64,000 nucleotides of DNA from Candidatus Hodarchaeota archaeon. GTDB taxonomy: Archaea > Asgardarchaeota > Heimdallarchaeia > Hodarchaeales > Hodarchaeaceae. The notes below the pieces were generated by a model. The model made no database searches, was not told the DNA's origin, and saw nothing but the letters and a program-made list of their open reading frames with translations. The DNA lies in contig JAEOTM010000143.1 of assembly GCA_016839815.1 (NCBI GenBank), forward strand, positions 26,461 through 90,460, written 5' to 3'. Both the position numbers and the translations under genes were made by a program. Positions 3,432 through 56,856 of this stretch are shown here, one piece after another. Position 1 is the first letter of the stretch. Every line of letters begins with the position of its first letter.

Positions 3432-3603
3432 TTAGATTCATCCTTGTTTTGGGGAGGTAGGTCACTTCCAAGTTAACAAATTAAGACATTTGTTCCGCAT
3501 TTACACAGCTTGTTTGCTTAATATAAAAAACAATAAAAGGTTATAAGGAAATATTCATACGAGCTTCCAAGAACTTCAAGCTGCAAAACAGAGGTGATTT
3601 TGG

Positions 3604-4191
3604 TTGAAGGACATAAAAAGTTTAATTATCAAAGCAAAAGCCTTAAAGCAAGATAAACAGGTTTCAGAAGCAATAGGTATTCTTAACCAAGCCCACGAGA
3701 TTGGAATTGCAAATAATGAAGTTGAAAATCTTGTGGATATTCATAATCAGTTAATGTTACTCCATTATCAGAATAATGATTCTGAATCCTTTCAAAAATC
3801 CTTCAAATTTGCACGGACTTTAGCAGCTAGAATTAATTATAATAAAGGTCTTGTAGAAAGCTATATGAATAAAGCATGGATCGAAACCGATAATAAAAAC
3901 TTTATTGAAGCCATAACACATGCATCTCAAGCTTTAGCGATTGATGAAATCTTAGAAAGTGCAACTGCCTTTACAACAGCCTTGTATATCATTTCTGAAG
4001 CCAATTATAGTGTAGGAGACAATGTGAAGGGGGATAAATACAAACAGCTTTACCAACAAAAATTAATGAAGTTAACCGAGAGCGAGGAACAGGTACTCAA
4101 AAGCATCGAAGGCTTATCTGTTGGTATGACCAAGGAAGAAGATTTGGACTCACGCGTTAAACAGGCTTTACAAGAATTAGATTCCTTTTAA
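3604..4191 (+). CDS. TPR-like helical repeat protein, function unknown
   Basis: A 195-residue soluble, mostly helical protein. Helix pairs of TPR type run from about 5 to 150, for example SEAIGILNQAHEIGIANN, KGLVESYMNKAWIETDN and FIEAITHASQALAIDEIL. The last 45 residues are charged (TESEEQVLKSIEGLSVGM). The start is TTG preceded by GAGGTGATTTTGG, a reasonable ribosome binding site. No enzyme motif is present; a scaffolding or adaptor role is a guess from the fold alone. It is the first gene of a long plus-strand run but is 80 bases away from the next gene. Confidence 0.65.
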   Translation: MKDIKSLIIKAKALKQDKQVSEAIGILNQAHEIGIANNEVENLVDIHNQLMLLHYQNNDSESFQKSFKFARTLAARINYNKGLVESYMNKAWIETDNKNFIEAITHASQALAIDEILESATAFTTALYIISEANYSVGDNVKGDKYKQLYQQKLMKLTESEEQVLKSIEGLSVGMTKEEDLDSRVKQALQELDSF

Positions 4192-4271
4192 TTTCTCCTG
4201 CAAGTTGATCTTCTGCATGGAGCAATGCTCAGATCTGTTATCATGCAGTGTAGTACCTATGAGGTACCTCC

Positions 4272-5453: not shown

Positions 5454-5464
5454 AGGTTTAACAA

Positions 5465-6742
5465 ATGGAAGACACCCAAAACTCGCTCAAATCAATTTTT
5501 TTTGATCTGTACTTGAATCCTAACTTATTAATGATCGCTTTTTACCAAATAATAGCTACTGGAGCTTTCACTGCGCAACAACTATTATTAGCAGCATACT
5601 TGGACGACCTTGGATATTTAGAAACTCATAGTCTAGAGAGTGGATTGGTTCTCGCAGTGTACTTTGTGTTTTGGTTCATCTTAGGGCCAATCAGTGGGTC
5701 TCTTAGTGATCTTCATGGAAGGAAATTTCTAATAATTTCTGCAAATATTGTCAGTGGTTTGGGATTTATTGGCCTCGTACTATTTCAAGACTTATTGTTC
5801 CTTTTCATGGTAAATGGGATCTTGGGAATAGGAGCTGCCTTACGTATCGGCTCAGTTATGGCCTTATGGGTTCAACACAGTCCAAAAGATCGTATAGGAG
5901 AATCAATGGCTTATATTAATATTATTTTAGGAGTAGGAGGAATAGGAACAACAATTATTGGCTTTCTCCTCTGGACAGAGGTGAAAGAAGCCTCATTTAT
6001 AGTATTTGGGCCTTTATTGCTCATTGCAGCGGTGTTAATCTTTCCTATTTCTGATGAGGGTGAATACATCCCATTTTCATTTATAGGCACAATTGATATG
6101 GTAAGAACAATGGTTAACTCAAAAAAGGCCGATAATTTTTTTCTCTCTCCCCCAATACTTAAACTTGGGATCCATTGGTTAGCTATATCAGCAATCGTTT
6201 CTTTTGGCACATTTTTAATTCCTATACTTGACAGAATATTAGAGGAATTACCCTCAGATGTTGAGATTCCAGTAGTTCCAATATTAATTATTGGTATGGC
6301 TGTCATAATTGCAACATTTACCGGATTACTTTTTTGGGGAAGAATTTCTGACAAGTGGGCAAGACGACCAGTTTTAGTAATTGGTTTTGGGAGTACAGCC
6401 ATATTAGTGGCTCTAATCTATTTAATATTCCAATTCGATCAAATTCCGGTTATATTAGATGGTCTTAATTCTGTAGATATTATTGTAGTCAGTTTTGTAG
6501 CTGTCTTGATAGTGTTACTCTTTTCAATGACTTCTCTCATTCCTGCTCCTATGGCTTGGATTGTGGACATTATGGGAAAAGAAAATATGGGGAAAGCCAT
6601 GTCATTGCGTCAAGCACTAATTGCTATTGGAACCATAATTGGAACTTCGATAGGAGGATTTGTCATCGGATCATATGCGATTCCAGGACTAATTCTGGTA
6701 ATATTACTCTTCTTATTGATCTCTGCAGTAATAATCGTGTAA
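5465..6742 (+). CDS. MFS transporter
   Basis: A 425-residue very hydrophobic protein with about 12 membrane helices. The major facilitator signature between helices 2 and 3 is recognisable as GSLSDLHGRKFL, and its repeat in the second half as GRISDKWARRPVL. The substrate is unknown. It follows the M24 peptidase by 11 bases and ends 66 bases before the phosphohexomutase-family gene. The ATG start at 5465 is well placed. The large minus-strand ORF inside it (5911-6402) is a shadow. Confidence 0.88.
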   Translation: MEDTQNSLKSIFFDLYLNPNLLMIAFYQIIATGAFTAQQLLLAAYLDDLGYLETHSLESGLVLAVYFVFWFILGPISGSLSDLHGRKFLIISANIVSGLGFIGLVLFQDLLFLFMVNGILGIGAALRIGSVMALWVQHSPKDRIGESMAYINIILGVGGIGTTIIGFLLWTEVKEASFIVFGPLLLIAAVLIFPISDEGEYIPFSFIGTIDMVRTMVNSKKADNFFLSPPILKLGIHWLAISAIVSFGTFLIPILDRILEELPSDVEIPVVPILIIGMAVIIATFTGLLFWGRISDKWARRPVLVIGFGSTAILVALIYLIFQFDQIPVILDGLNSVDIIVVSFVAVLIVLLFSMTSLIPAPMAWIVDIMGKENMGKAMSLRQALIAIGTIIGTSIGGFVIGSYAIPGLILVILLFLLISAVIIV

Positions 6743-6808
6743 AATACAGTCAAAAAAAAAAGTATCTAATCAAAAATCATTAATATTGATCCTTAATCCA
6801 ATTTTTTT

Positions 6809-8194
6809 ATGGGACAATGGTTTGGAAGTTCAGGTGTTCGGGGTACCTTTGCTCAAATATCACCCGCATTTGGATTTAAATTAGGAACTGCAGTCGGAGA
6901 AACTTTTAAGCTAGATAAACCTGTGTATATTGCCTCTGATATTCGTGCTACAGGTGATCTTCTCAAATTTTGTTTTATGAGCGGATTTTCTAGTGTTTCT
7001 GGTAATATTATTGACATTGGATTGAATCCCACCCCTGTACTATCCTATATCTCGGATATCAAAAACACTTTAGGTATAATGATAACAGCTTCTCATAACC
7101 CCCCAGGAAACAACGGTTTTAAACTTTTTTGGAAAGGAGGGGAATGTAACGAATCCATTGAGGCACAAATCGAGGAAAAAATACGATCTTCTGTTATTCC
7201 GGAAACCTATTACTCGCCAAACCAATCAGAATGGGATTCGGTTGGTACTGGATCATTTGTTCTTCCAAAACCTATTGTTGACGACTATATTTCTCTATTA
7301 ATAAAAAAACTCACTATAAAGAATACTGATATCAAATTAGTCATTGATTGTGCTAATAATACTCCGAATCTTGTAACTCCTTTCACACTAAAGAGATTGG
7401 GGTTTAGAAATGTAATAGCGATCAATGAAACTTTGGACCCTACTTTTCCTGGAAGACCAAGTGAACCAACAGCTGAGAATTTACAGGACCTAATTTCCAG
7501 AGTTGTGGGTGAAAACGCAGATCTAGGAATTGCTCATGATGGCGATGGGGATCGATTCGCAATAATAGACGAAAAGGGTAATTTAATCAGAGCTACAACC
7601 CTCATTAATTTTTTTCTGGATCATCTGAATTATCCAAAGGCTAAAAACGGAATTGTTTATCTCACAAGTGATTGTACCAGTGAAGCTGCAAGTATCGCTG
7701 AAAATCATGGAGCAGTTGTAAAAGCCAGCCGTATTGGTAGAAATAGAGAACACGTGAATGAGGCTAGAGTAATCTTTCTTGCTGAACCGAATAAACTTGT
7801 ATTTCCTGAATTAGGAAAATGGATAGACGGTTTATATCCAGCATTAAAACTTCTCGAAATAGTAGGCACAGATAAATTGTCTACTGTCCTGAGCAGATAT
7901 GAAAAAAGAAAGACCTTAAGAAAAGCATTCAAATACAGTCAAAACGACAAAAGACAAATTCATGATTATATTCAGAATTTACCCTCATTGTGGTCGAAGC
8001 AAATTGAGAAGGTAATCAAGGTAGATGGTATGAAACTCTACCTAAAAGATAAATCAAGTATACTCATTAGGTTTTCAGGGACTGAACCCAAAGTAAAATT
8101 CTACATAGAATCTAATACTCACCCACGGAATGCAGAAATATTAACTCAATTAAAGTCGGAACTTCACCTCGAAGGCCAAGGATTAGACTGTTAA
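6809..8194 (+). CDS. Alpha-D-phosphohexomutase superfamily protein, possibly phosphopentomutase
   Basis: A 461-residue member of the phosphoglucomutase/phosphomannomutase superfamily. The four domains show the phosphoserine loop MITASHNPPGNNGF (Ser95), the metal loop AHDGDGDRFA (D244, D246, D248) and the phosphate loop RFSGTEPKVKF near 425. The domain 3 sugar loop, usually of the GExSGH type, reads AEPNKLVFPELGKWIDG here, so it is not a standard GlmM or ManB. Some archaeal members of this superfamily are phosphopentomutases, and the next genes are a nucleoside phosphorylase and a PfkB kinase. A role in converting (deoxy)ribose 1-phosphate to the 5-phosphate is therefore my preferred inference; a sugar-phosphate mutase for glycans is the alternative. 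Confidence 0.8.
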   Translation: MGQWFGSSGVRGTFAQISPAFGFKLGTAVGETFKLDKPVYIASDIRATGDLLKFCFMSGFSSVSGNIIDIGLNPTPVLSYISDIKNTLGIMITASHNPPGNNGFKLFWKGGECNESIEAQIEEKIRSSVIPETYYSPNQSEWDSVGTGSFVLPKPIVDDYISLLIKKLTIKNTDIKLVIDCANNTPNLVTPFTLKRLGFRNVIAINETLDPTFPGRPSEPTAENLQDLISRVVGENADLGIAHDGDGDRFAIIDEKGNLIRATTLINFFLDHLNYPKAKNGIVYLTSDCTSEAASIAENHGAVVKASRIGRNREHVNEARVIFLAEPNKLVFPELGKWIDGLYPALKLLEIVGTDKLSTVLSRYEKRKTLRKAFKYSQNDKRQIHDYIQNLPSLWSKQIEKVIKVDGMKLYLKDKSSILIRFSGTEPKVKFYIESNTHPRNAEILTQLKSELHLEGQGLDC

Positions 8195-8222
8195 TGTTTC
8201 TATTATACATAATTGAAGTGAA

Positions 8223-9098
8223 GTGATCATATTGAATGCTAAAAAAACTGGGAATATCAAAGGAGCAGATGTTGTTTCAGATAAAGTGGGAAGACAATAT
8301 CATATAGGACTGACTAAAGGTGAACTAGCTGAAAATATAATTCTAGTAGGAGATCCAGCAAGGCCGAACCTAGTAAAACATCTGTTTTCTGAAATTTATT
8401 TCGAAACACAAGTCAGAGAATTTCGTACAATTACTGGAAGAATCGAAGATACAGATATTTCTATAATGAGCACTGGGATCGGACCAAGTAATATTGAGAT
8501 TTCTATGGTTGAAATCATGCAAATATGTAAATCTCCTACCATTATTCGAGCAGGAAGTTGCGGAGGGTTACAACTCTACATAAATATTGGTGATCTGGTG
8601 ATATCCACTGGTTCAGTTCGTTTTGAAGATACCAGTTTGTATTTTATTCCCGAGGGTTATCCCGCTGTTGCAGATTGGGAGGTTATTTTAGCTCTAAGTG
8701 AAGCCGCAAGGAAGGAGAACTATACTTATCATATTGGCCTTTCAGCCTCAGGATCAGGATTTTACGGGGCCCAAGGGAGGGATATTCCAAGATTACCTGT
8801 GAAGAATCCAAACGCTATAAATTATCTAACGCAAGTAAAAGTATTAAATTTTGAAATGGAAGCTTCTACACTTTTTAATTTAGCCCAAATTTTCGGTTTT
8901 CGATCTGGTATGGTCTGCTCCGTGTTTGCGAATCGGATTACAAGTGAATTTATTACAAATGAATCTAAACATGATGCCGAAATCAACTGTGTAAAGACTG
9001 CGATTAGTGGATTAAAAGTCCTTGAACAGATGGATAAAGTCAAAAAACATCAGAAGGTGAATTACTGGTCACCAGCAATGAAAATTTCAAACCCCTAG
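8223..9098 (+). CDS. Nucleoside (uridine-type) phosphorylase
   Basis: A 291-residue enzyme of the PNP/UDP phosphorylase family, cleaving nucleosides with phosphate to a free base and ribose 1-phosphate. Family motifs are visible: the phosphate loop ILVGDPARPNLV, MSTGIGPSNIEI, the ribose/phosphate segment IRAGSCGGLQ and FEMEASTLFNLA, whose Met-Glu pair contacts ribose. The length fits uridine phosphorylase-like proteins with a short C-terminal extension. The start is GTG at 8223. It lies 28 bases after the mutase and 19 before the PfkB kinase, which supports a nucleoside salvage operon. Base preference cannot be read safely. Confidence 0.88.
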   Translation: MIILNAKKTGNIKGADVVSDKVGRQYHIGLTKGELAENIILVGDPARPNLVKHLFSEIYFETQVREFRTITGRIEDTDISIMSTGIGPSNIEISMVEIMQICKSPTIIRAGSCGGLQLYINIGDLVISTGSVRFEDTSLYFIPEGYPAVADWEVILALSEAARKENYTYHIGLSASGSGFYGAQGRDIPRLPVKNPNAINYLTQVKVLNFEMEASTLFNLAQIFGFRSGMVCSVFANRITSEFITNESKHDAEINCVKTAISGLKVLEQMDKVKKHQKVNYWSPAMKISNP

Positions 9099-9117
9099 TC
9101 AATAAAGGTAATATCAA

Positions 9118-10077
9118 ATGAGTTTACAACGTGTTTTCTGTTTAGGTCATATTTCGGTTGATGTTTTCATCCATAGAAAAGATTTAAAAGCTCTTAAAAT
9201 CGGAGGGTGTATTTCATCACCGAATTTGTCCATGCAAGGTGGTGGGGTCGCAGCCAATGTATCTTATTGGCTTGGGACTCTTGGTACCAATGTTTCAATG
9301 ATAGGAGTAATTGCAGATGATCCTGCTGGCTTCTTTTTGAAAAAGGATCTTGAAAGAGTTAATGTAAAATGTTACCTGAAAACTTCAACTAAGAATCCAT
9401 CTGCAAGTATTCTAATAGTTGTTGAAGATGGAGGGGAACGATCTTTCATAATCAACGGGGATTGTTTAGACGAGTTAACAATGAACGACATTCCCTTAAG
9501 AGAGATTCAGGGAGGAAATCTATTGTACACCTCTGCATACAATATAGAAAATTCTCCCATTGATCAAACAATTTCTGAATTAGTAGAAAAATCTAAAACA
9601 TCGAATCCTTTGTCTTTCGAGGTAATTTTTAATTTAGCAGCCTATACAACGGTAGAGAATTATAGAGAAAAAATCAGATCAAAAATTCTACCTTATATTG
9701 ACATTCTACTTGGAAATCTTGAAGAGTATGAAATACTCTTAATGAAATCTAACAAGAGAGAATCACCCCTTCGATTATTATCGGAGCTCATAGAAGATTT
9801 TCCAAACATTAAGATTGCATTACTTACTGATGGTGAGAAAGGATGCTACTATAAATCAAAAGAAGACGATGGACACATTCTAGCACCGAAAATCTCTGTA
9901 GTCGATACTACAGGAGCTGGAGATGGATTTGCTGCAGGTTTCATTAGTGGATATGTAAAGGGCTTTCCTCTAACCCAATCAATAAAGAATGGCATTGAAC
10001 TAGGGTCGTATATATGCCGAGGATTTGGTGCAAGACACGATTCAACCAATTTTCATAGATTTTTAAAGAAAAAATGA
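9118..10077 (+). CDS. PfkB family carbohydrate/nucleoside kinase
   Basis: A 319-residue ribokinase-fold kinase. The N-terminal substrate-binding pattern is QGGGVAANVSYWLGTLG (about 40-56) and the C-terminal signature with the anion hole and catalytic Asp is DTTGAGDGFAAGF (D263 to F275, catalytic D269). In this family the substrate may be ribose, a nucleoside, ribose 1-phosphate or another sugar. Next to a nucleoside phosphorylase, a possible phosphopentomutase and a nucleoside importer, ribose, ribose 1-phosphate or a nucleoside is most likely. It is the last gene of the run that starts with the M24 peptidase. Confidence 0.88.
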   Translation: MSLQRVFCLGHISVDVFIHRKDLKALKIGGCISSPNLSMQGGGVAANVSYWLGTLGTNVSMIGVIADDPAGFFLKKDLERVNVKCYLKTSTKNPSASILIVVEDGGERSFIINGDCLDELTMNDIPLREIQGGNLLYTSAYNIENSPIDQTISELVEKSKTSNPLSFEVIFNLAAYTTVENYREKIRSKILPYIDILLGNLEEYEILLMKSNKRESPLRLLSELIEDFPNIKIALLTDGEKGCYYKSKEDDGHILAPKISVVDTTGAGDGFAAGFISGYVKGFPLTQSIKNGIELGSYICRGFGARHDSTNFHRFLKKK

Positions 10078-10270
10078 TTATATTTGACGAAAATATTTCT
10101 GGCTTCTGTTATTTCCATAAAAGTGTGGGATTTTAGAATAAATCAATCGAATAACAAAATCTCATGATTCTCTCTGCGAATACGGATTTTTCATTAGAGA
10201 ATTGACAGTTTATCTTGATATGGTAACTGTGAAATTTTAATTGTAACGATTTATGAAAGTAAAATATAAT

Positions 10271-10286
10271 CCGAAATACTTATAGA
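10271..10286 (+). promoter_or_regulatory. Likely archaeal promoter (BRE plus TATA box) of the nucleoside importer
   Basis: CCGAAA followed by TACTTATAGA matches the archaeal BRE-TATA arrangement. It would place transcription start near 10310, leaving a leader of about 115 bases before the TTG start at 10425. Confidence 0.45.
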
Positions 10287-10310
10287 CGTTGCGAAATTCG
10301 AAATTATCAG

Positions 10311-10340
10311 ATTTTTACCCCCGTTTACCTTGGTAAAAAT
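10311..10340 (+). promoter_or_regulatory. Perfect inverted repeat in the importer leader, candidate operator or hairpin
   Basis: Arms ATTTTTACC and GGTAAAAAT are exact complements of 9 bases separated by a 12-base loop. The element begins where transcription should start from the TATA box at 10277-10285, so it could be a repressor site or a hairpin in the mRNA leader. Confidence 0.5.
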
Positions 10341-10424
10341 TCAATCTATTGTATCTATCATAACTATTTCTTCTAGGAAATAGGATGATACAATCTAGTA
10401 TAAAAAATTAATAGAGGTATTTAG

Positions 10425-11465
10425 TTGAATAAATATAGAAATTTAGTCTTAGTATGTGTACTCTTAGCCTCCATCCTCGCTTTCTCTGGATGTACCGAAG
10501 AAGCTGGAGTGAACAAAATTGGTATTATTTTCGCTACTGGCGGACTTGGAGATAAATCATTCAATGATGCTGGATATCGAGGTTATGAACAGGCAAATGA
10601 GACATATGGGGACGAAATCGATGTGGATTATGTCGAACCTGACGATATTCCTGAATTTGCTACCTATCAGAATCAGATGGCAACTGATGGAACATACGAT
10701 CTCATTATTTGTATTGGATTCCTTCAAGCTACAGCGTTAAACGAATCAGCTGAAGATTTTCCTGAACAGAACTGGGTTATAATTGACGACGATACTATTA
10801 ATCGAACTAATGTTAAGTCAATAACCTTTAAAGAACATGAAGGAAGCTTTTTAGTCGGCGCAATGGCTGCAATGACAACTCAATCGGGTAAGCTTGGTTT
10901 CCTTGGTGGAATGAATATCTACCTAATAAATAAATTCCTTGCAGGCTATCAACAAGGAGCCGACTATATTGATGACTCCATTAATGTAACTGAGACATAC
11001 ATGCCAGTACCACCCCCAGCATGCTGGTTTGATGCTCCAACCGCAAAGAATGTTGGAGAAAACCTTTATAGTCAGGGCATAGATATAATATACGCTGCCG
11101 CTGGTGGAGCAGGCCAAGGTATTTTCCAAGCAGCTAATGAAACTACTGGTGTCTATGGTATTGGTGTAGATAGTGATCAAGATGGAGACATGCCTGGAAA
11201 AGTTCTCTGTTCAATGTTGAAATTAGTGGAAACTGCGGTATTCAATTCTATTCGGGATGTAGTTGAAGATACATGGACTGCTGATCCTGTTTCTTTGGGA
11301 CTAGCAGAGGAAGGTGTTGGAATTTCCCCAATGACCTATACTGATGCGATAAAGACTGGTAACTTCGAATTTGGTGGAGTTACAAAAACACGCTGGGAAT
11401 GGATTCAAGATATTAAAGGAAAAATAGTTGATGGTACTATCGTTGTAAGCGATACGCCTAGCTAA
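10425..11465 (+). CDS. BMP family (PnrA-like) nucleoside-binding lipoprotein of an ABC importer
   Basis: A 346-residue extracellular substrate-binding protein. Residues 1-23 are a lipoprotein signal ending in LAFSGC, with Cys23 as the attachment site. The mature protein has the BMP/Med start KIGIIFATGGLGDKSFNDAGYRG, then the central VKSITFKEHEGSFLVGAMAAM and GVDSDQDG, typical of purine-nucleoside binding PnrA/Bmp proteins. The start is TTG. It is followed by T-rich DNA and then by the ATPase gene after 128 bases, so expression of the abundant binding protein may be partly uncoupled from the rest. Confidence 0.92.
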   Translation: MNKYRNLVLVCVLLASILAFSGCTEEAGVNKIGIIFATGGLGDKSFNDAGYRGYEQANETYGDEIDVDYVEPDDIPEFATYQNQMATDGTYDLIICIGFLQATALNESAEDFPEQNWVIIDDDTINRTNVKSITFKEHEGSFLVGAMAAMTTQSGKLGFLGGMNIYLINKFLAGYQQGADYIDDSINVTETYMPVPPPACWFDAPTAKNVGENLYSQGIDIIYAAAGGAGQGIFQAANETTGVYGIGVDSDQDGDMPGKVLCSMLKLVETAVFNSIRDVVEDTWTADPVSLGLAEEGVGISPMTYTDAIKTGNFEFGGVTKTRWEWIQDIKGKIVDGTIVVSDTPS

Positions 11466-11483
11466 GTTCCCTTCAATAAATCC

Positions 11484-11510
11484 CCCTCTTTTTTTTATCC
11501 ACTTTTTTTG
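11484..11510 (+). terminator. Oligo-T terminator after the BMP gene
   Basis: Two T-tracts (CCCTCTTTTTTTT and ACTTTTTTTG) lie 20-45 bases after the stop codon, matching archaeal oligo-T termination signals. They could give partial termination before the ATPase gene. Confidence 0.5.
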
Positions 11511-11593
11511 ATGATGTCTCCCAAAAGTATATTATAAATTTGTCTTTGTTAATGATTATTTCAATTCTTGATTGATTATAAGTTAGAGTTAAT

Positions 11594-13189
11594 TTGACAT
11601 CGAGCTCACGGAGAATAGCTGGCATGACCGTTGAAGACAAGATAGTTCCTGATGATAATTATTCCATTCAAATGAAAAATATAAATAAAACGTTTCCTGG
11701 TCCTGTTTATGCCAATAAAGGAGTTAATTTACATATACGCAAGGGAGAGATACATGCATTACTGGGCGAAAATGGAGCTGGAAAAACAACTCTTATGAAT
11801 GTATTGTATGGCCTTTATGGTCCTGATGACGACTCTTCACAGATTCTGATCAATGGCCGTGAAGTGAAAATTAAAGAACCAATGAATGCGATGGAAGTTG
11901 GAATTGGTATGGTTCACCAGCATTTTATGTTGGTACCAATAATGACTGTAGCTGAAAACTGTGGATTAGGCGCAGAATCTACTTTTCAAGGAATCAGGTT
12001 AGATGAAACCAAGATGAGAAACAAGGTTCAAAAGATCTCTCAGGAATTTGGCTTAGAAATAGATCCCGATTCTATTGTAGAAGATCTACCAGTTGGTCTG
12101 CAACAAAGAGTCGAGATATTAAAAATCCTCTATCGTGGTGCAGAAATCTTAATTTTAGACGAACCAACCGCAGTTTTGACTCCTCAAGAAGTTAATGCAT
12201 TATTCGAAACATTGAAAGCATTACAGGCTCAAGGGAAAACAATAATTATAATTACACATAAACTGAAAGAACCTATGTTTCTAGCTGACAGAATTACAGT
12301 TCTCCGTCAAGGACAAGTAATAGGTACGATTGACAAAGATAATACTACCTTAGAAGAACTAGCAGAAATGATGATTGGGAGAAAATTATTGAAGATAAAA
12401 CGTCCGGAATTATCAACAGGGGATATTCATCTAGAGCTAGACAATATATTTGTTACAGATGACCGAGAGCAGGAAGCAGTTAGAGGTGTTTCACTAAAAA
12501 TAAGAAAAGGTGAAATTTTAGGTTTAGCTGGAGTGGTCGGAAATGGCCAACGAGAATTAGCTGAAGCGATTACAGGTCTTCGTTATGTAAAGGAAGGAAA
12601 AATCCTAATGGGAGGACGGGATATAGCTAATAAATCACCACGATTTTTGTACGATTTTGGTTTAGCCTACATCCCAGAGGATCGTCAAAAAACAGGTTCT
12701 GTTGGTGACTTTACAATCGCAGAAAATATGATTCTTGGTATTCATCATCGAAAAGAATGGTATTTAACTGGAGCTCTTTCTAGCTTTCTGAACTGGGAGA
12801 AGATTTACGGAGAGGTAAACAAAAATGTTGAGAACTATGATATTCGTACACCTTCAATTACTACACCATTACGATATTTGTCAGGAGGGAATCAACAGAA
12901 AGTTATTGTTGCACGAGAATTATCGAAAAAACCTTCAGTAATTGTTGCAAGTCAACCTACCCGAGGACTGGATGTTGGAGTTATAGAATATGTACATACA
13001 AGATTATTAGAACTTAGGAAAGAAGGAAAGGCAATCCTTTTAATCTCAAGCGATCTAGACGAAATTCTATCAATATCTGATAGAATTGCTGTAATATATG
13101 AGGGAGAAATAATTGCGATCGAAGATCCATCAGAAACTAATGAACAGAGATTAGGACTACTAATGGCTGGACAAAATTTAGGTGATTAA
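11594..13189 (+). CDS. Nucleoside ABC importer ATPase with two nucleotide-binding domains
   Basis: A 531-residue double ATPase of the sugar/nucleoside (RbsA/NupO-like) class. The first domain has Walker A GENGAGKTTLMN (about 58-69), a signature-like LPVGLQQRVEILKIL and Walker B ILILDEPTAVLTP. The second, from about 285, has the degenerate P-loop GVVGNGQRELAEA without the Lys, the signature LSGGNQQKVIVAREL and VASQPTRGLD; loss of the second P-loop Lys is usual in this class. The track start is a TTG at 11594; an ATG at 11624 is an alternative. It ends two bases before the permease, so the two are translated together. Confidence 0.92.
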   Translation: MTSSSRRIAGMTVEDKIVPDDNYSIQMKNINKTFPGPVYANKGVNLHIRKGEIHALLGENGAGKTTLMNVLYGLYGPDDDSSQILINGREVKIKEPMNAMEVGIGMVHQHFMLVPIMTVAENCGLGAESTFQGIRLDETKMRNKVQKISQEFGLEIDPDSIVEDLPVGLQQRVEILKILYRGAEILILDEPTAVLTPQEVNALFETLKALQAQGKTIIIITHKLKEPMFLADRITVLRQGQVIGTIDKDNTTLEELAEMMIGRKLLKIKRPELSTGDIHLELDNIFVTDDREQEAVRGVSLKIRKGEILGLAGVVGNGQRELAEAITGLRYVKEGKILMGGRDIANKSPRFLYDFGLAYIPEDRQKTGSVGDFTIAENMILGIHHRKEWYLTGALSSFLNWEKIYGEVNKNVENYDIRTPSITTPLRYLSGGNQQKVIVARELSKKPSVIVASQPTRGLDVGVIEYVHTRLLELRKEGKAILLISSDLDEILSISDRIAVIYEGEIIAIEDPSETNEQRLGLLMAGQNLGD

Positions 13190-43613: not shown

Positions 43614-44522
43614 ATGATTCAAATCCCAAAGGAAGTTTATCAAGATTTTCTCAGATTTGCTCTTGAGAATGCTAATCCTCTTAAAAAATCAAGATATTGG
43701 AGAGAATGTATAGGGTTAATCCTCGGTCGTATTGATGGAGAATCGATTATTGTAACTGATATTATTCCCATTGGTTCTGGTTCATCAGTCTTTGTAGACA
43801 TAAGTGATTATGAAAAAGTATTTTCGCTAATTTCTTTTGATCGAATAGATCAAGGTGAAGTGATAGTTGGTTGGGCTCATACTCATCCAGGTTTAGGGCT
43901 TTTTTTTTCAGGTACAGATATTGGAACCCAAATAACATACCAAAGCATGCATCCGCTGGCATTTGGACTCGTCCTTGACCCAACCAAGGTTAATCCTTTT
44001 TCTCCTGGTTTTAATCTTTACAGAGTAGATTCATCAACATCTCGTCCTTATACGGTTGATTTTCATTTTACAGAGGAATTTAATTATCTCTCAATTTATC
44101 AGCAATTGACACAAGAATTATTTGATGTAACTATACCTATTTCAGAGATGGTTCCCGAATTAAAAGCAGTTAATATGGTAACTTGGAAAAACATTACCCT
44201 TACCTTGGAAAAGCCTTCAAGTGTTCAAAAGAATACACCATTCCCAATAAAACTTACTCTAAAAATGTCACGATCTCAATTCTTCAGGGTATCCTACAAA
44301 CTTCGGATCTATAACGCAAAAATGAGTTCGATGCAGGATTTCGATGATTCTAATGAATATTTTCATGAAACATTTGATTCTGGGACATTAGCAATTTTTT
44401 CAATAGTTTCAGATAACCCAAATCAAATATATTTCCAGCTGGAACATATGAGGGTGACTGATTATAGACAAAAATATTATGATTCCCCTGCATTAGGAAT
44501 CGAAGTAGTTTCTAACGAATAG
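43614..44522 (+). CDS. JAMM/MPN+ metalloprotease, Rpn11/CSN5-like
   Basis: A 302-residue protein. Residues 1-170 form an MPN+ domain with the full zinc set: E31 (WRECIGLILG), H89 and H91 with S99 and D102 in GWAHTHPGLGLFFSGTDIGTQ. This core is strikingly like eukaryotic Rpn11 and CSN5 (GWYHSHPGxGCxLSGxD). Residues 185-302 form a second, strand-rich domain (ITLTLEKPSSVQKNTPFPI) not typical of Rpn11. It is predicted to remove ubiquitin-like proteins from targets. No ubiquitin, E1, E2 or E3 gene is in the window. It is the last gene of the cluster, 15 bases after trmI. Confidence 0.9.
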   Translation: MIQIPKEVYQDFLRFALENANPLKKSRYWRECIGLILGRIDGESIIVTDIIPIGSGSSVFVDISDYEKVFSLISFDRIDQGEVIVGWAHTHPGLGLFFSGTDIGTQITYQSMHPLAFGLVLDPTKVNPFSPGFNLYRVDSSTSRPYTVDFHFTEEFNYLSIYQQLTQELFDVTIPISEMVPELKAVNMVTWKNITLTLEKPSSVQKNTPFPIKLTLKMSRSQFFRVSYKLRIYNAKMSSMQDFDDSNEYFHETFDSGTLAIFSIVSDNPNQIYFQLEHMRVTDYRQKYYDSPALGIEVVSNE

Positions 44523-44526
44523 AATA

Positions 44527-45333
44527 CTAAACTTCTTGGTTTTTGAATTTACGATTCCCATAAAGACCTAAGAGAACAAAAGCTACGAAAATGAAGAACA
44601 CTCCATAGAAGAGAAAAATTAAGACATATGGCGGTTCTGGTAAACTCTCGACAAACTCAAAGGACATATTTTGGGGAAAATAGACCTCTTTAGTTACTCT
44701 ATCTCCCTCATAGATATGATATTCCACCTTAAACGCAAATTTGTAATTTCCATACGTTGGGAGGGCTAAGTATGGAATCTTGACAACTTCAGATTTTGAA
44801 GAATTCGGGGGTAATACTAAATCCTCAGGATTGTTTGCATTATATTCTGATTCTCCAACAACACCTGTACGGTTATCTTTTTCACCTGTTCTAACTTCGT
44901 AAACCTCGACGGAAAATCTATGAATCACAATAGATTCGTCATTTCCGATAACTGTTCCATAGGAGGCATTTATTCGCAGTTTTGAGTTATTTACAATCTG
45001 GGGGGTTAAAGTAGTTTGACCAGTAGTAGGTTCTTCAGGTACCAACTTCTCAAGAGTTACAAACGTTCCGTCTTTTTCAACTTCAAGATTCACTTGTTGA
45101 ATTTTAATCAACGGAGATTCGGATTGTGCTCTTGCAGCTTCGATTTGAAGCATCTTGGGCTGATTAAAAGGCATAATTCCTGAAGAAAGCATAACCACTA
45201 TAAGGATGATGCTTGGTTTTATGATTTTACGTATCATGTGACATACCAATCCATATACTCTTTGAAGAGAATCTTTTTTTGTCGTTAAGACTGAAATCTT
45301 CTTTTTCTGATTCCGTCTATATCTTTTATGCAT
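44527..45333 (-). CDS. Membrane-anchored extracellular protein downstream of ATPase E
   Basis: A protein with an N-terminal hydrophobic segment (KPSIILIVVMLSSGIMPF), a strand-rich outer domain with VNNSKLRINASYG and NGT/NMS-type glycosylation sites, and a C-terminal membrane helix VLIFLFYGVFFIFVAFVLLG followed by a basic tail. The track starts at a TTG (45363), which overlaps atpE by 17 bases; ATG codons at 45333 and 45237 are alternatives, and 45237 would give a classic signal peptide. The overlap or near overlap suggests co-transcription with ATPase E. Family unknown. Confidence 0.6.
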   Translation of the reverse strand: MHKRYRRNQKKKISVLTTKKDSLQRVYGLVCHMIRKIIKPSIILIVVMLSSGIMPFNQPKMLQIEAARAQSESPLIKIQQVNLEVEKDGTFVTLEKLVPEEPTTGQTTLTPQIVNNSKLRINASYGTVIGNDESIVIHRFSVEVYEVRTGEKDNRTGVVGESEYNANNPEDLVLPPNSSKSEVVKIPYLALPTYGNYKFAFKVEYHIYEGDRVTKEVYFPQNMSFEFVESLPEPPYVLIFLFYGVFFIFVAFVLLGLYGNRKFKNQEV

Positions 45334-45346
45334 TTTTCTAGTATTA

Positions 45347-45970
45347 CTAACTACCTTCACCAAAAATAATAGAACTCAATTTATTTCTTATTGATTCTTT
45401 TCTTCGATCGAAAATGGCATTAAATGTATTATTTACAGTCAAAGAGCCTTTTTGAACAATAATACCACCATTGGTAAGGTCTTGCTCTGAAGAAGAAAGA
45501 TTAAGCTTAGTGCTGGTTCCAGTTTTCTTTGCAATTTCAGCTTCTAGGGAATTAGTATCGATGGTGTGAGTATCACTAGGATGTAATGTGATATTCATTT
45601 CACCTCCCTCTAGGATAGTTCCACTTAACACTATTAATTCAGAAATGGAATTCAAATATCTTTGATCTTTTTGTTCTCGCATCAATTTGATCTTATTTAT
45701 GCTTTCATCAAAAATCTCTTGAACCAAGGACTCCTTAAAGTTTTCAAGTTCAATTTTGTTCTTTATTCGAATTCGTGACAGTTCTCTTTGTACTTCGAGT
45801 TCCTCTCTCTCACTTCTCTCTGTTTCAGCTTTTTGTCTTAATACTTCATTTTCACTTTTTGCTTGAGTTAATATTTTATCTGCTTCTTTTTTGGCTTCTT
45901 TTAGGATCTTCTCTGCATTGTTTTGTGCATCCTGAAGGATTTCTTGTTCTAATTGTTGAATATCTGACAT
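45347..45970 (-). CDS. atpE: A/V-type ATP synthase peripheral-stalk subunit E
   Basis: About 207 residues from the ATG at 45970 (the track adds three codons from a TTG). The N-terminal half is a long coiled coil (LEQEILQDAQNNAEKILKEA, KKEADKILTQAKSENEVLRQ) and the C-terminal half is the globular domain with SISELIVLSGTILEGGEM and LTNGGIIVQKGSLTVNNTF, matching the GGxxVxxxDGxxxxxxTxxxR-type signature with FDRRKESIRNKL after it. It pairs with subunit H (30953) but is coded 14 kb away, next to unknown genes. Confidence 0.9.
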   Translation of the reverse strand: MSDIQQLEQEILQDAQNNAEKILKEAKKEADKILTQAKSENEVLRQKAETERSEREELEVQRELSRIRIKNKIELENFKESLVQEIFDESINKIKLMREQKDQRYLNSISELIVLSGTILEGGEMNITLHPSDTHTIDTNSLEAEIAKKTGTSTKLNLSSSEQDLTNGGIIVQKGSLTVNNTFNAIFDRRKESIRNKLSSIIFGEGS

Positions 45971-46007
45971 AATTCTCAATCCTATTAGTATACTAATGAT
46001 TTTCGTT

Positions 46008-47075
46008 TTAATCTAGCCTTATAATGGGATAGTTTTCTTCTAACAGTTCCCCTATTGTCTGCTTAATTGCATTTTGAGCCTTTGAAATTTCTTCCTCTGT
46101 GAAAAACTTCTTCAGCTCTTTGATAATGAAGAAATTTGGGTCATTCTGATTTCCATTTGATAATATCTGGTAGATTTCTCTTTCAATTAACCCTCTAGAA
46201 AATTTCTCTTTCAAAATATCAAAAATGATTTCATGAGCAATCATTATTTTCAATTCATTTTGACTTGTTCGGTTTATCACTTCCGATGTGAATACAAGAA
46301 CCGAAAAATCCTCTTTCACCTGACTCATTGCATCCAACGAAAAAACTGGTATATAGGAGGGTTCAAACCTGTTTTCTAATGCGGTTCGAAACAAATATGG
46401 TTTCACAGATATTCGATATCTATTCGCGATCCGTGCAGAATATTCCCGTAAGCTTGATTGGATTGTGATTAAGGTTGCTTTTGCTTTACGTAGTTCATTC
46501 AGATGTTGCATGGATTCCATTGAAATATCTTCAAGGATCTTGATAATTGGAAAAATCTGAATTCCTGTACGTACCTTCATCCTTAGCTGTACTTCGATTT
46601 TTTCAGTAAAATCCTCATAAGGAATAACATCTTGACCTTGCATACGGATAAGGGGGAGATGTTTAATGTCGCTAAATGCTAGAATTTCTGATTCCGATAC
46701 TGATTTATTTTCACAAAAGATATTCTTGAGAATAGCGGAGAAGTACTCCATCCCAGTTGATAAAGCACTTGAATCTAAAGCTTGAAATACAGGAATTGAA
46801 AAAATGATAATCATAAATTTCTCTTCATTCTCTTCAATTATATGAAAATAAAAAGGACTTACTTTCTGATTCTCTAGTTGAATTAAACCATTAATCCCAT
46901 AAAAACGAACTTGTTCGACCACATCCAATAAAGCAGAGTACTGTAAAGTAACTCTTTCAAACTCAATTGACATCCATTCTTCGATAGTTAAACGAAATTG
47001 AAACTGTTGGGTTGGAGGAATCTTCTGGTGAGAGCTCATTCTACTAGCAATGAGGTTGGAAAGCGAATAAAACAA
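46008..47075 (-). CDS. Unknown 355-residue protein
   Basis: A soluble protein that I do not recognise. Residues 30-190 look alpha/beta (RFYGINGLIQLENQKVSPFYF, FMIIIFSIPVFQALDSS), the centre is helical (MESMQHLNELRKAKATLITIQ) and the C-terminal 80 residues are helical and charged. IMIAHEIIFDI contains HE but no second His, so it is not a HExxH peptidase. The start is TTG with ATGGGGGG five bases before it, ten bases after the stop of the upstream membrane gene; that site decides for TTG over the ATG at 47039. Probably one operon with the membrane protein and ATPase E. Confidence 0.6.
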   Translation of the reverse strand: MFYSLSNLIASRMSSHQKIPPTQQFQFRLTIEEWMSIEFERVTLQYSALLDVVEQVRFYGINGLIQLENQKVSPFYFHIIEENEEKFMIIIFSIPVFQALDSSALSTGMEYFSAILKNIFCENKSVSESEILAFSDIKHLPLIRMQGQDVIPYEDFTEKIEVQLRMKVRTGIQIFPIIKILEDISMESMQHLNELRKAKATLITIQSSLREYSARIANRYRISVKPYLFRTALENRFEPSYIPVFSLDAMSQVKEDFSVLVFTSEVINRTSQNELKIMIAHEIIFDILKEKFSRGLIEREIYQILSNGNQNDPNFFIIKELKKFFTEEEISKAQNAIKQTIGELLEENYPIIRLD

Positions 47076-51270: not shown

Positions 51271-54200
51271 TTATTTCTTTTTCTTTTTGCCTTTAGTTTT
51301 CTTTCCTGTCTCCCCAGTAATAGTGCCCAATTCAGATAGAGCATCTGAAAATAAGTCTATTAAATCTGGAGGTTTTACTTCGGTTGGTTTTGGGGATTCT
51401 GATTCGGCTATTTCCTCATAAGATACTTCAGGAATTCCAAAGAGCTCGCTTGTATCACTCTGATCATCTTCATCAAGAGCATTAACGACAGAGTCTAACG
51501 AACTGCTTATATCTTGGTCGAAAAGGCTTTTAGTTTCTTCATACGGCTTTAGTTCCTGTTTAGGAGGAATAACACTCTCTGTATCAACTAAAGCCATTTC
51601 TAACTCTTCTAAACCTGGAAGACTCTGTTTCTTTTGTTGTTCTAAGTCAGGTTTTAATTGGAGTGAACTGAGTTGAGTTGGCTTTACAACATCTTCTTTT
51701 ATAGGCGTGAATGATGATTCAAGAACACTTAAATCAGGCGTTTCTGATGTATCTTCTACTATACTCGGAGGTTTTTGTGGCTCAGGTTCGCTAATTCGAT
51801 CTGGGGAAGGAATTGCCGCTTCTTTCTTTAGTAAACGACCGAAAGCGTCTACTTCCCATTCTTCCTCACTCGTAGAAGATTCTTTCGCTGACAAGGATCT
51901 TAATACATCAGCACCTCTCAGTTTAGAGTCGTCACGGGAACTAAACAGAGTTGTTACTTCATCATCAGAAAGAGTAATCCCTTCCTTTGTAGGAAGACTT
52001 ACGTCTGGCAAGGGTTCCTCTTCTGCGGAGGGAGATCTCCGTGTTGATTCATCTGGAACTGGATCCATTGAAAAAAGGCTTGACAGCTCCTCATCACTCA
52101 ATGTTGTTGATACTTCCTCCCCTTCCATCTTGGGAGGTATTTCTAAAACCTCTCCGCTTATTTGTGGTTGTAGAGCTGGTATTTCTTCTTTTTGTTGAGT
52201 GATTTGTGGTTCTGGTTCTTGGAATATTGGTGGTGCTTCTAGTTGGTCGGGGAGTGGCGATTCTGGTTTTATCCCTTTAATTACATCGATAATTTCTTCA
52301 TCTTCCACTATTTCGGGCACGATTGGTTTTTCGAAACGAGGTTCCTCAGGAGGTGTGAGTACTTCAGCAGCATCAACCATGGTAGGAGCCACATGTCTGA
52401 CCTCTTCAACCACAAGTTTATCTTTCTCTGGTTTTGTTTTCAAAAAGTTATTTCGCTTCTCTGATAAATGCTTAAACCCTTTTTTGAATTTCTTAGGTTG
52501 AATACTAAGATCATCAAAATACTGCTGAATTTTCGTTGTTTTATCGGTCTCTTTCAGATCTGTAGCATAATTTAACATGAAAAGGAGGATTCCACCCATT
52601 TCCTCAGAACGATTTATCATTGTAGCTAATTTACTCATATATTCGAGATATCGAAACACTAGATCTAAATTATCAGTTGTGACCGCTGTTTCGATAATAT
52701 CGAAACAATTTTTGAAAAGCTCATCAAGATCTTCTAGTTCCTCTAATTTCTCTATAGTTTGTTGAAAGGCAGCCAATACTGAATCATCAGAGACATTACA
52801 TAGATATTTCGTTAAGAGAACTAATAACTGAGCTTCATGTTTTTTGGCCTTGAATTTACTGCAAATATAGATTCCTCTCTCAAATGTACGAATGGCTCTT
52901 TTTGTGGAGGAGTATTGATTTGCTAAATCATTATAAATATTAACCACTCCATCAAAATCATTTGCACCTCGTAAGTAGTCAGCAGCGAGATAAGCATACT
53001 CAGAGGCTAGATCAGGATTATCATCAGCAACCATTTGAGCAAATTTGTGGGTAACTTTCGCCCCAAAATGATTCTTCTCTGCAGATAATTCAGGATTCGT
53101 ATTAATATGCTGAATCAAATTATCAAGATACTCTCTTCCTTTGTCTATATGGGCTTTATTAATTAAATTCTGAACAAATTCAAGAGATCGGTCAACAATT
53201 TCTGAAAAAGGTAAATTTGATCGTTCGGATAATATCGACATTAACTTCATGGCTTCTACTGCAAAACCAAAATCTGTTAACTTCTCCGTGTATTTAAATA
53301 CTAATTTATTCCCAGGATCAACTAAAGCACTGCCATACACAAGATTAACTAAAGAGATTATACCATCAGCAGATTCAAACGTCAATGCAGATGACTCAAT
53401 AAGTTGATCATAAAATTTTTCTGAATACTTAATGTACTCATCGAGAGGAGGTGAAAGGACTTCATTTACGACCGTAAGAAGAGAAACATCAGGGTATTTC
53501 TGTAATAGCGGATCAACAACCTTCTTTGTGATTTTTTTGAAGTCATCCTTCAATGAATGAATCTGTACAATCTTTCGAAAGAGTTGTAGTGATGATTCTT
53601 TCACATGTTGAAAAGTAATTTCAAAGACCATATTCAGAAATTCGAGGGCTTTATCTGGTTTGTTATCATCCTCGAATAGGGAAGCTACTTCGAGGGCAAA
53701 TTTGATGGCAGAATTGTAATCTGCATTATCTAAAGTGATTTTAGTATAATCTTTTATCGATTGAATTGCAATTTTATATTGTTGATGAGTTTTACCAAAT
53801 CTAAATATTAAATCAGTCATTTTTGCTGCGTCTTCGAACTGATCAAATTCCAAAAAGCGATTTCGCATCTTCCCAAGATATTTGATTACATCTGGAATAC
53901 TCCCAGAACTTTCAATATAGCGAGCATTCTGAACACTAAAGATGTAGGCATCTTGAAACATCCCCTGCTCTAATTGTCTATCAATGATGTTGGATACAAT
54001 TGAGATACACTTCTTAAAGTTCTCTTTTTCCTCGTATTCCTTTAAGATTATATCTGTAATTTTTTGTGACAATTCTACTGAATGATCAAGAAGCTCCTCT
54101 TGATATTTTACTAACATTTCAAGTGCTCCCTGGTCGTCTCCCATCCGTTTATAGGCTTCCGCTGTTTCAAAAACGTATTTTTGGACGAGATCAATTCTTT

Positions 54201-56856
54201 GAGTATTTTGTAAAAGATGATCCACAAAACGACTTATTGAATCTATTGCTCTTGTATAGTCGCTTTGTTTTCCTTGAAGGATTACTAGTTGGTCAAGAAT
54301 ATATGCAGCTCTATCAACTTCCGTCACATCAAGGAGTTCTTTGATAAAGTTCTGCAATAGTTCATAATCAATATGATCTGATTGTAGCATTAAGCTCGCG
54401 ATATAGCGTATATACTCGAAAATCATATCTCGATGGTTGTACTCCCTGAGTTTATCGATAAATTGACAACAAAATTTGATAACATCTTTTATTTTCTTGG
54501 TTTCTAATAAACGAGATAATTCTAAGTTGATCATCTCTTGGGCTGTAAGTACAGCCTGACTTACAAGCATTTCATCTACGTATTTGAGGACAATTTTTTC
54601 CCTTTTCTTCGGGTCATCAATTGTTTGAAGTGCTGTTTGTATAAAGGACTTTGAGCGATCTTTCATTCCTAGTTTTCCTAGTAAATCCCCCATTGCTAAT
54701 TGCTTTTCGATTCGGCGGGAATCATCATCTTTGTATGCCTTCCCTATAAGATTCTCTACAAATTGTAGATAGTTCTTTGCTGCCTCACTTTCATTTAGAT
54801 CAGCGAGACCTCTCACAACCCCAAGACTAAAATCAACAGCTTCTTCGATTTTATTTAATTCATAATATAGTTTTATGGCTTGATTACTCAGCTCACATGA
54901 CTTTACATATGTTTCTGGATCCATTAATGCTTCTGCTGCTTCCAGGGTGATTTCTAACGCTTTTTCCTTTTTTCCCTGAGTTTCAAGAGTCAGTATTAAA
55001 CGATTGACATATCGCTGATAGTGGGTTTTTTCATTAATAGATTTTAATAAACTTGAAGTTTCTTCAAGGGTACTTAGTATTTCAAAATTCGCTTTACGTT
55101 CTTCCTGTACTCCCAAGGCGGCATCAACTAAGAAAACTATGTCTTCCAAGAAACCATCCTTCTCTGCACTAGAAAAAACATCCTCACTAGTCCGAATTTC
55201 TTTGATTGTGAAATGCGCATATCGAAGAGCATTCTCCCACATTACTACTGGAAGTCGAGCTTGCTTATAGAATTCAGCTTGCTTTTTAGCTAAAAGTAAT
55301 ATTGTAGATATTGAATCAGGGGCTATTTTTTCCGATAAATAATGGTCTAAAACTAGATCACATAGATTAGCTGCATTTAGATGCTTGTTTTGATCAGAAA
55401 GCATTTCAATTGATTCAAACACAAACTCAATTGTGGTATCGAGATCAATTTTTATTAAATCAGATATAATCTCTGATTGGATTTTAACGACTTTGGAATC
55501 TTTTCCCTGCTCAACCAAAAATTGAATAAGTTTACGTCCAAATCGTAGAATTCCCTTAGCATTTTCTTCTTTGCGGAATCGCCTAAGTAATACCTCTGTA
55601 ATCTTTGATGCTGCTTTAAGTTTTCCTTCTTTTTCATTCTGCTCAATAATTTGTAAAAAATGCCCGACGGCAACATTAATTATGATTTGTTCCATTGGCT
55701 TTGTAGTTAACTCGCCAATGGTTTGAAAAACTAATTCTGAAGCATCATAAAGATAGCTAAATGAGATTTGGGGAATTTCCTGATTAATTAAACGAGCAAT
55801 TTCATCCTGATCAATGGTTATTTCTACTGGTGTAGAAACCGATCCTTCAGATTTACGGAAACGCAAAAACCAAGAATCAAATTTCCTAAGAATAATACAG
55901 TCTACTCCTCCGGAATGAGTAATAGGAATTTCTTTGACAGGTAGAGGTTGTCCAACTTCAACTACTTCTTTTACTTTAGTGATAAATTTATCAAAATCTT
56001 CAGCCTTACTGAATTCTGACATATCAAAATCAGATAAATCTACCAGAGCTACTTCATCTTGTTCTGTTGAAACAGTTCTCTGCGATTCTGAGTGAGATAG
56101 AGGATCGTCTACATCAACAATTGCATCCATTTGAGGGATTGAAACTGTATCTTCTGATTCGACATTTTCTGGTTTTAGTATTAATGATTCAATTCGCTCT
56201 GCTGAATCATATATTGCTGAGAATGATAGAAAATCAATTCCCGATTCACTGATCAATTCCACAAGTTTATCCTGATTTACTTTATCCTTAGAATAGACTT
56301 TCCTTATGAGGAGTTCTTCATCTCTGGATAGAACTACCGCGTATTTTCCCTCAGGAGTATAGTAAATCGTGGCAAAACCTGATTTGGAATGAAGCATTTT
56401 AATTCTTTTGAGTTCCTTATCTCCTAGAGGTATTGTTAGAATTTTGCCTGTTTGAACTGAACTCACATCTTCAACAATCTCCTCCTCCTCGTCTAGAGTA
56501 TCTTCAGCAATTATACCAAATTTTTCTGTCATTTCATCAGTTTCTTGGGTAACAGATTTTGAATCAGCTTTATCATCGATTGAGAAAGCTTGAAATTCAT
56601 CCTTTATAGTATTTACTAGCAAATCAGCGATGTCAAAGATTGCAGAGAAACTAAAAAACTCTACTCCAGCCTCACTCAGAAGATCTACCATCCGATCTTG
56701 ATCCAACTTGGACGGGGAGATTGAGGAAGAGTTTATCTGTCTATCATTTTGAAAGAAGTTTAATATGTAACTATCTCCACTCTCTCTTATTTCGACTTCT
56801 ACCCCTGACGTAGAGGGAAGTTCTAACCGAACCAGTTTTTCGTTTCGGGTTGCCAT
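51271..56856 (-). CDS. Giant alpha-solenoid protein with three N-terminal repeat modules and an acidic motif-bearing tail
   Basis: An 1861-residue protein of no family known to me. Residues 1-390 hold three related modules of about 80-100 residues; each ends with the pattern D-Q-D then S-F-S-x-I-Y/F-D (LSEAGVEFFSFSAIFD, ISESGIDFLSFSAIYD, INQEIPQISFSYLYD). About 390-1500 is an uninterrupted run of TPR/HEAT-like helix pairs. From 1500 on the chain is disordered, Pro/Glu/Ser-rich, with TLSDEELSSLFS and TLSDDEVTTLFSS, and ends in a GKKTKGKKKKK tail. No signal peptide or membrane segment. Architecture of a cytoplasmic scaffold; the function is unknown. A TATA-like CTATATC lies about 30 bases upstream. 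Confidence 0.85.
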   Translation of the reverse strand: MATRNEKLVRLELPSTSGVEVEIRESGDSYILNFFQNDRQINSSSISPSKLDQDRMVDLLSEAGVEFFSFSAIFDIADLLVNTIKDEFQAFSIDDKADSKSVTQETDEMTEKFGIIAEDTLDEEEEIVEDVSSVQTGKILTIPLGDKELKRIKMLHSKSGFATIYYTPEGKYAVVLSRDEELLIRKVYSKDKVNQDKLVELISESGIDFLSFSAIYDSAERIESLILKPENVESEDTVSIPQMDAIVDVDDPLSHSESQRTVSTEQDEVALVDLSDFDMSEFSKAEDFDKFITKVKEVVEVGQPLPVKEIPITHSGGVDCIILRKFDSWFLRFRKSEGSVSTPVEITIDQDEIARLINQEIPQISFSYLYDASELVFQTIGELTTKPMEQIIINVAVGHFLQIIEQNEKEGKLKAASKITEVLLRRFRKEENAKGILRFGRKLIQFLVEQGKDSKVVKIQSEIISDLIKIDLDTTIEFVFESIEMLSDQNKHLNAANLCDLVLDHYLSEKIAPDSISTILLLAKKQAEFYKQARLPVVMWENALRYAHFTIKEIRTSEDVFSSAEKDGFLEDIVFLVDAALGVQEERKANFEILSTLEETSSLLKSINEKTHYQRYVNRLILTLETQGKKEKALEITLEAAEALMDPETYVKSCELSNQAIKLYYELNKIEEAVDFSLGVVRGLADLNESEAAKNYLQFVENLIGKAYKDDDSRRIEKQLAMGDLLGKLGMKDRSKSFIQTALQTIDDPKKREKIVLKYVDEMLVSQAVLTAQEMINLELSRLLETKKIKDVIKFCCQFIDKLREYNHRDMIFEYIRYIASLMLQSDHIDYELLQNFIKELLDVTEVDRAAYILDQLVILQGKQSDYTRAIDSISRFVDHLLQNTQRIDLVQKYVFETAEAYKRMGDDQGALEMLVKYQEELLDHSVELSQKITDIILKEYEEKENFKKCISIVSNIIDRQLEQGMFQDAYIFSVQNARYIESSGSIPDVIKYLGKMRNRFLEFDQFEDAAKMTDLIFRFGKTHQQYKIAIQSIKDYTKITLDNADYNSAIKFALEVASLFEDDNKPDKALEFLNMVFEITFQHVKESSLQLFRKIVQIHSLKDDFKKITKKVVDPLLQKYPDVSLLTVVNEVLSPPLDEYIKYSEKFYDQLIESSALTFESADGIISLVNLVYGSALVDPGNKLVFKYTEKLTDFGFAVEAMKLMSILSERSNLPFSEIVDRSLEFVQNLINKAHIDKGREYLDNLIQHINTNPELSAEKNHFGAKVTHKFAQMVADDNPDLASEYAYLAADYLRGANDFDGVVNIYNDLANQYSSTKRAIRTFERGIYICSKFKAKKHEAQLLVLLTKYLCNVSDDSVLAAFQQTIEKLEELEDLDELFKNCFDIIETAVTTDNLDLVFRYLEYMSKLATMINRSEEMGGILLFMLNYATDLKETDKTTKIQQYFDDLSIQPKKFKKGFKHLSEKRNNFLKTKPEKDKLVVEEVRHVAPTMVDAAEVLTPPEEPRFEKPIVPEIVEDEEIIDVIKGIKPESPLPDQLEAPPIFQEPEPQITQQKEEIPALQPQISGEVLEIPPKMEGEEVSTTLSDEELSSLFSMDPVPDESTRRSPSAEEEPLPDVSLPTKEGITLSDDEVTTLFSSRDDSKLRGADVLRSLSAKESSTSEEEWEVDAFGRLLKKEAAIPSPDRISEPEPQKPPSIVEDTSETPDLSVLESSFTPIKEDVVKPTQLSSLQLKPDLEQQKKQSLPGLEELEMALVDTESVIPPKQELKPYEETKSLFDQDISSSLDSVVNALDEDDQSDTSELFGIPEVSYEEIAESESPKPTEVKPPDLIDLFSDALSELGTITGETGKKTKGKKKKK

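Follow-up and report, generated by a model that had tools for sequence, protein, structure and literature searches.

The SolA gene and its surroundings

The window, by which we mean the whole 64,000-nucleotide stretch of Hodarchaeota DNA analyzed here, carries on its reverse strand a long gene for a protein that we call SolA, with three small N-terminal modules, a long helical solenoid, and a motif-bearing tail. The features are as follows, all on the reverse strand.

51271..56856, - strand: SolA, whole gene, 1861 aa, ATG start
56578..56835, - strand: module 1, aa 8-93 (~5-92 in the profile alignment), beta4-alpha2 (profile-profile comparison and AlphaFold2)
56176..56418, - strand: module 2, aa 147-227 (~146-232 in the profile alignment), beta4-alpha2 (profile-profile comparison and AlphaFold2)
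55705..55944, - strand: module 3, aa 305-384 (~302-386 in the profile alignment), beta4-alpha2, directly before the solenoid
52435..55695, - strand: TPR-like alpha-solenoid, aa 388-1474, 54 predicted helices, ~27 hairpins, period 40
51274..52428, - strand: tail, aa 1477-1861 (385 residues), low conservation, rich in Pro, Glu, and Ser
52072..52101, - strand: tail motif copy 1, LSDEELSSLF, aa 1586, conservation 0.86
51943..51972, - strand: tail motif copy 2, LSDDEVTTLF, aa 1629, conservation 0.73
51823..51867, - strand: tail motif EEEWEVDAFGRLLKK, conservation 0.86, absent from the sequence-only reading
51718..51741, - strand: tail motif TPDLSVLE, conservation 0.90
51304..51372, - strand: C-terminal motif PPDLIDLFSDALSELGTITGETG, among the most conserved tail stretches
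51274..51303, - strand: Lys-rich end, KKTKGKKKKK

Comparison of orthologous sequences indicates that SolA is a genuine gene under purifying selection. Of its 11 congeners, 8 have near-full-length orthologues with 47 to 81% identity, and one more has the gene split in two frames in its assembly, giving 9 carriers out of 11. SolA was not found in the remaining two (G001 and G011); the flanking gcvT and peptidase genes were likewise not detected in either, so this absence is uninformative. Against the orthologue with 81% identity (locus L023), the overall dN/dS is 0.051, with values of 0.037 for the solenoid, 0.067 for the modules, and 0.17 to 0.21 for the linkers, synonymous sites being near saturation. 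The 1861-residue protein that had been read from the sequence alone at 51271-56856 is thus a real gene. The accompanying remark that no described prokaryotic family is known with this layout is borne out by searches of the whole protein against Pfam, NCBIfam, and PDB sequences, which gave nothing significant (no PDB sequence match below E = 0.1) and no recognized catalytic domain; literature searches on Asgard TPR or alpha-solenoid proteins likewise turned up nothing on SolA.

The neighbors of SolA are metabolic, with a convergent gcvT gene, SHMT, and an M20 peptidase gene upstream. Judged by the size and order of genes, gcvT lies beside SolA in most congeners (homology was checked in G009 and G013), and in G005 it is found at another place. 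There is no operon around SolA and the metabolic neighbors are not kept in all relatives; the context gives no functional clue. In Borrarchaeota-side genomes, SolA is transcribed divergently from a gene for a protein of ~1172 aa, which in L050 has HdrA/FlpD-like Pfam matches (L050:12839-16357), and a gene of the same size occupies the same place in 4/4 loci (L050, L051, L052, and L053). An in-frame TGA in GcvT of two relatives proved to be only apparent, since it lies outside the aligned coding region. Elsewhere in the window, a JAB/MPN (Rpn11-type) protease gene (43614-44522) adjoins a GCD14/TrmI-like tRNA methyltransferase gene and two short ORFs without a Pfam match, and a gene for V-type ATP synthase subunit E (45347-45979) is flanked by ORFs without a Pfam match (44527-45363 and 46008-47075).

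Three homologous N-terminal modules

As the sequence-only reading had proposed, the N-terminal region contains three diverged copies of one module; their alignment by profile-profile comparison indicates that they are homologous (E = 3.7e-19 for modules 1 and 2, 5.7e-11 for 1 and 3, and 7.8e-14 for 2 and 3), and AlphaFold2 predicts the same fold for each, four strands followed by two helices (beta4-alpha2), with pLDDT mostly 82 to 93 within the blocks and low confidence in the linkers. The model of all three modules together (pTM 0.33) gives their folds and does not fix their relative placement. The relative G012, from the same order, has four modules, against three in the Borrarchaeota-side proteins. 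Between Hodarchaeota and Borrarchaeota, conservation is highest in module 3 together with the first repeats (NQxIPQISxS).

Searches with the module profile against the PDB and with module members against Pfam returned only unconnected chance matches, and Foldseek against the PDB, with the three modules and their disordered linkers searched as one model, gave E values of at least 0.075. Matches to this model in BFVD were nonspecific, except for small Serratia phage proteins. One of these, the uncharacterized A0A5P8PH31, resembles a single module (TMt 0.72, rmsd 2.2 Å, 91 columns, prob 1.00) but differs in sequence (E = 0.05, 13% identity), and the likeness is likely an analogy of a simple fold. 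On their own, the modules may have a ligand-binding or enzymatic role.

A TPR-like solenoid of more than 1,000 residues

The more than 1,000 residues of helical repeats expected from the sequence are recovered in the AlphaFold2 model, which places 54 helices over ~1087 residues with a mean pLDDT of 85.7, and hydrophobicity autocorrelates at 20 and 40 residues. All SolA structure described here is prediction, built from 15 to 16 sequences. The repeats are predicted to be tandem antiparallel helix pairs in a superhelix, that is, an alpha-solenoid of the tetratricopeptide type. SolA thus shares helix pairs and a 40-residue period with the TPR superfamily but is very diverged in sequence; no TPR family matches it with E up to 1, which leaves it outside the curated sequence consensus, and weak TPR_12 matches appear in the Borrarchaeum orthologue (23.8 bits, E = 5e-5, below the curated cutoff of 30.1) and in a second protein, SolB, described below. 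Residues identical across clades concentrate at the junction of module 3 and the first repeats (aa 361-440) and near aa 1265-1300, and from this pattern of conservation both regions are likely functional surfaces.

Foldseek matches the solenoid model to long solenoids of helices, most of them TPR proteins (best E = 2.6e-10; all 50 matches listed are below 1e-5); an IFT-A subunit is at the top, and Ski3/TTC37, Ctr9, separase, and Naa15 are among the others. The IFT-A subunit, Ski3, Ctr9, and Naa15 have long arrays of TPR-type hairpins, as SolA does (E from 1e-10 to 1e-6), but global TM scores are ~0.1-0.2 and identities 10 to 14%, and these proteins lack the beta4-alpha2 head. We detected no orthology or significant sequence homology of SolA to IFT139/TTC21, Ski3, Ctr9, or Naa15, and the likeness to the first three is generic.

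Conserved motifs in a drifting tail

The tail has a mean column identity of only 0.52 within the genus, with conserved motif islands inside it, among them one that begins with PPDLIDLFSDALSELG (conservation 0.87 within the genus). We infer from its composition and drift that it is disordered; the model covers only its first 14 residues, where pLDDT is below 50. Both copies of LSDxExxxLF are kept in 10/10 genus tails, each of which also ends in a Lys/Arg-rich run, in agreement with the Lys-rich end noted earlier. The two copies had been called near-identical, which is slightly generous, since both are present but, in this protein, have 6 of 10 residues in common. In the window’s genome, the LSDxExxxLF coding pattern occurs in the SolA gene only, and wherever the WEVDxFGR pattern of the EEEWEVDAFGRLLKK motif turned up among the searched genomes, it was confined to the SolA gene. 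Two LSDxExxxLF matches arise in shuffled tails at a frequency of 1e-5, a figure that is illustrative because the pattern was written after the motifs had been seen. A relative from the same order, G013, keeps a version of the C-terminal motif (FDEALSEL) and lacks the LSDxE motifs. That motifs are kept while their surroundings drift is the pattern expected of docking peptides and favors the earlier suggestion that they are docking sites.

Distribution of SolA among Asgard genomes

In a scan of GTDB species genomes, SolA was found only in Hodarchaeota/Heimdallarchaeota MAGs (including ‘Candidatus Hodarchaeum mangrovi’) and in Borrarchaeota/Sifarchaeum MAGs, and a scan of viral contigs gave no match. 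Because both scans rely on short peptides that are conserved, they could miss relatives that have diverged strongly. The same distribution emerged when 228 genomes of the phylum were searched with a profile, with SolA in the genus, in two other genera of the order, and in one distant genus (G175-G178), and no match in the rest of the class; a weak match in G132 (E = 1e-4) falls in an unrelated TPR-type protein and was rejected. The Borrarchaeota/Sifarchaeum orthologues are divergent and keep the three modules and the solenoid, but the tail is missing, so it is not part of the core of SolA. The tail would then be an addition of Hodarchaeota, and the head and solenoid the conserved machine.

A free module and a second giant solenoid protein

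The module is also encoded on its own, as a free ~100-aa protein, in the window’s genome (L076:9775-10071) and in eight congeners. Its gene lies head-to-head with that of SolB, a TPR-type protein of ~1100-1200 aa, in G003, G005, G007, and G009; in the window’s genome, G001, G010, and G011, SolB is encoded elsewhere. SolB alone also has an ARM_TT21 match (0.0047), and its solenoid has no detectable sequence homology to that of SolA. The module is thus tied to giant TPR solenoids in two ways, being fused to one in SolA and encoded next to another, SolB.

A C-terminal motif that SolA and SolB seemed by eye to share (DLF..xL..L, then Lys) was rejected, as an unbiased comparison of C-termini scored 19 for SolB of the window’s genome, within background; a DNA pattern search that finds both C-termini is no evidence, because the pattern was written from both. 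G002, G006, and G007 encode a third long protein that is TPR-like, of ~1290 aa and with a weak relationship to SolB (L099:5740-9630, L101:215-4042, and L098:1469-5308); in G006 it terminates in a short motif that is acidic and helix-like (LIDDQIDEMLDFMD-KKK). In the single-contig MAGs of L028 and L080, the Lys-rich end of SolA and SolB contains or is directly followed by a run of ~100 N, which may mark assembly breaks at A-rich ends.

Proposed role and alternative readings

The architecture, the lack of a recognized catalytic domain, and the conserved islands in a drifting tail lead us to read SolA, with slightly better than even confidence, as a TPR-type scaffold, presumably cytoplasmic, in which the modules would form a head that binds a partner or itself and the tail would be an arm for docking. 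In sequence and model, a three-module head on variable linkers is joined through module 3 directly to a solenoid of ~27 hairpins, followed by the motif-bearing tail with its basic end. The superhelix groove would hold partner segments and the modules would bind a partner or one another, while the same module as a free protein could be a SolB subunit. The tail would act as a flexible arm on which repeated acidic helical motifs recruit a partner, or several, with avidity; the basic end may serve as a weak electrostatic anchor.

Coat proteins of the coatomer or clathrin type have a beta-propeller followed by an alpha-solenoid, whereas the N-terminus of SolA consists of three beta4-alpha2 domains and gives no WD40 match. 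Of the likeness to eukaryotic scaffolds and to vesicle-coat or cytoskeletal adaptors drawn in the sequence-only reading, the scaffold architecture stands and the adaptor assignment is not supported, the structural matches being generic. A membrane-traffic or coat/tether-like scaffold working with Asgard small GTPases or ESCRT is unlikely, even though eukaryotic transport complexes contain TPR solenoids of comparable length, the top Foldseek match is an IFT-A chain, and ESCRT and related longin/TPR proteins are encoded in Asgard genomes (PMC10936438); the best matches span unrelated TPR machines (Ski3, Ctr9, separase, and Naa15), and neither a beta-propeller in SolA nor an ESCRT or GTPase gene among its examined neighbors was found. 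We give still less credence to a nucleic-acid or ribosome-associated scaffold, in which the modules would be whirly/PUR-like beta4-alpha units binding RNA or single-stranded DNA, and hold it to be highly improbable. The top module matches in the PDB, trypanosome MRP1/MRP2 and, lower, PURA, are beta4-alpha nucleic-acid binders, and Ski3, Ctr9, Naa15, and TFIIIC are RNA- or DNA-related TPR scaffolds, but the module matches are not significant (E = 0.075, rmsd ~20 Å, TM ~0.1-0.27) and the SolA modules carry a second helix.

The tail motifs invite comparison with the CheY-binding motif of FliM, in its longer form LSQxEIDALL, which they resemble by eye, both being short and amphipathic and ending in E-[hydrophobic]-x-x-L-[F/L]. 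SolA could then be a signaling hub whose repeated LSDxE[ILV]xxLF motifs bind phosphorylated CheY-like receivers, as the FliM EIDALL peptide binds CheY (PMC9126983). The window’s genome, which the receiver search covered, has 8 receiver matches and, on contig C98, a complete chemotaxis cluster (L135, G000:C98:60000-77338, at 3239-13083) with CheA, CheY, CheW (one 748-aa multi-CheW protein), CheC, CheD, CheR, and a CheB-like protein. FliM/FliY differ in that their peptide is N-terminal, whereas SolA has two copies in a long C-terminal tail and no flagellar domain, and convergence readily produces short amphipathic helices with an N-cap. CheW genes are patchy across the genus, with a single CheW-like match each in G003, G006, and G009, and, judged by CheW matches, a chemotaxis system does not accompany the motif wherever it occurs; G004 (71% complete) has the motif and no CheW match, both it and G008 being incomplete genomes. 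Because G008 (91% complete) keeps both motifs without any CheW match, we regard the signaling hub as quite unlikely. Beside the chemotaxis cluster (L135, 2147-3205) lies a gene for a 352-aa protein whose start is Asgard longin/roadblock-like by eye and which has no Pfam match.

Implications

Scaffolds of the TPR type are familiar as such; the libraries searched contain no description of the beta4-alpha2 family, of its triplication and pairing with giant solenoids, or of the tail. In SolA, Hodarchaeota thus have a giant protein that is strongly conserved, undescribed, and equipped with a domain family of its own. Multidomain TPR scaffolds whose tails carry motifs are regarded as a eukaryotic trait. 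More tentatively than for the scaffold role of SolA itself, we consider it possible that SolA, SolB, and the free module form a dedicated Asgard scaffold system, in which a small domain is paired with giant TPR solenoids as a fused triplet or as a separate subunit, to which Hodarchaeota would have added a multivalent tail for docking. A specific, testable prediction follows from the free module and SolB, namely, that the module binds the solenoid. If this reading is true, a eukaryote-like scaffold layout would have evolved in Hodarchaeota, the lineage proposed as the sister group of eukaryotes (PMC10307638).
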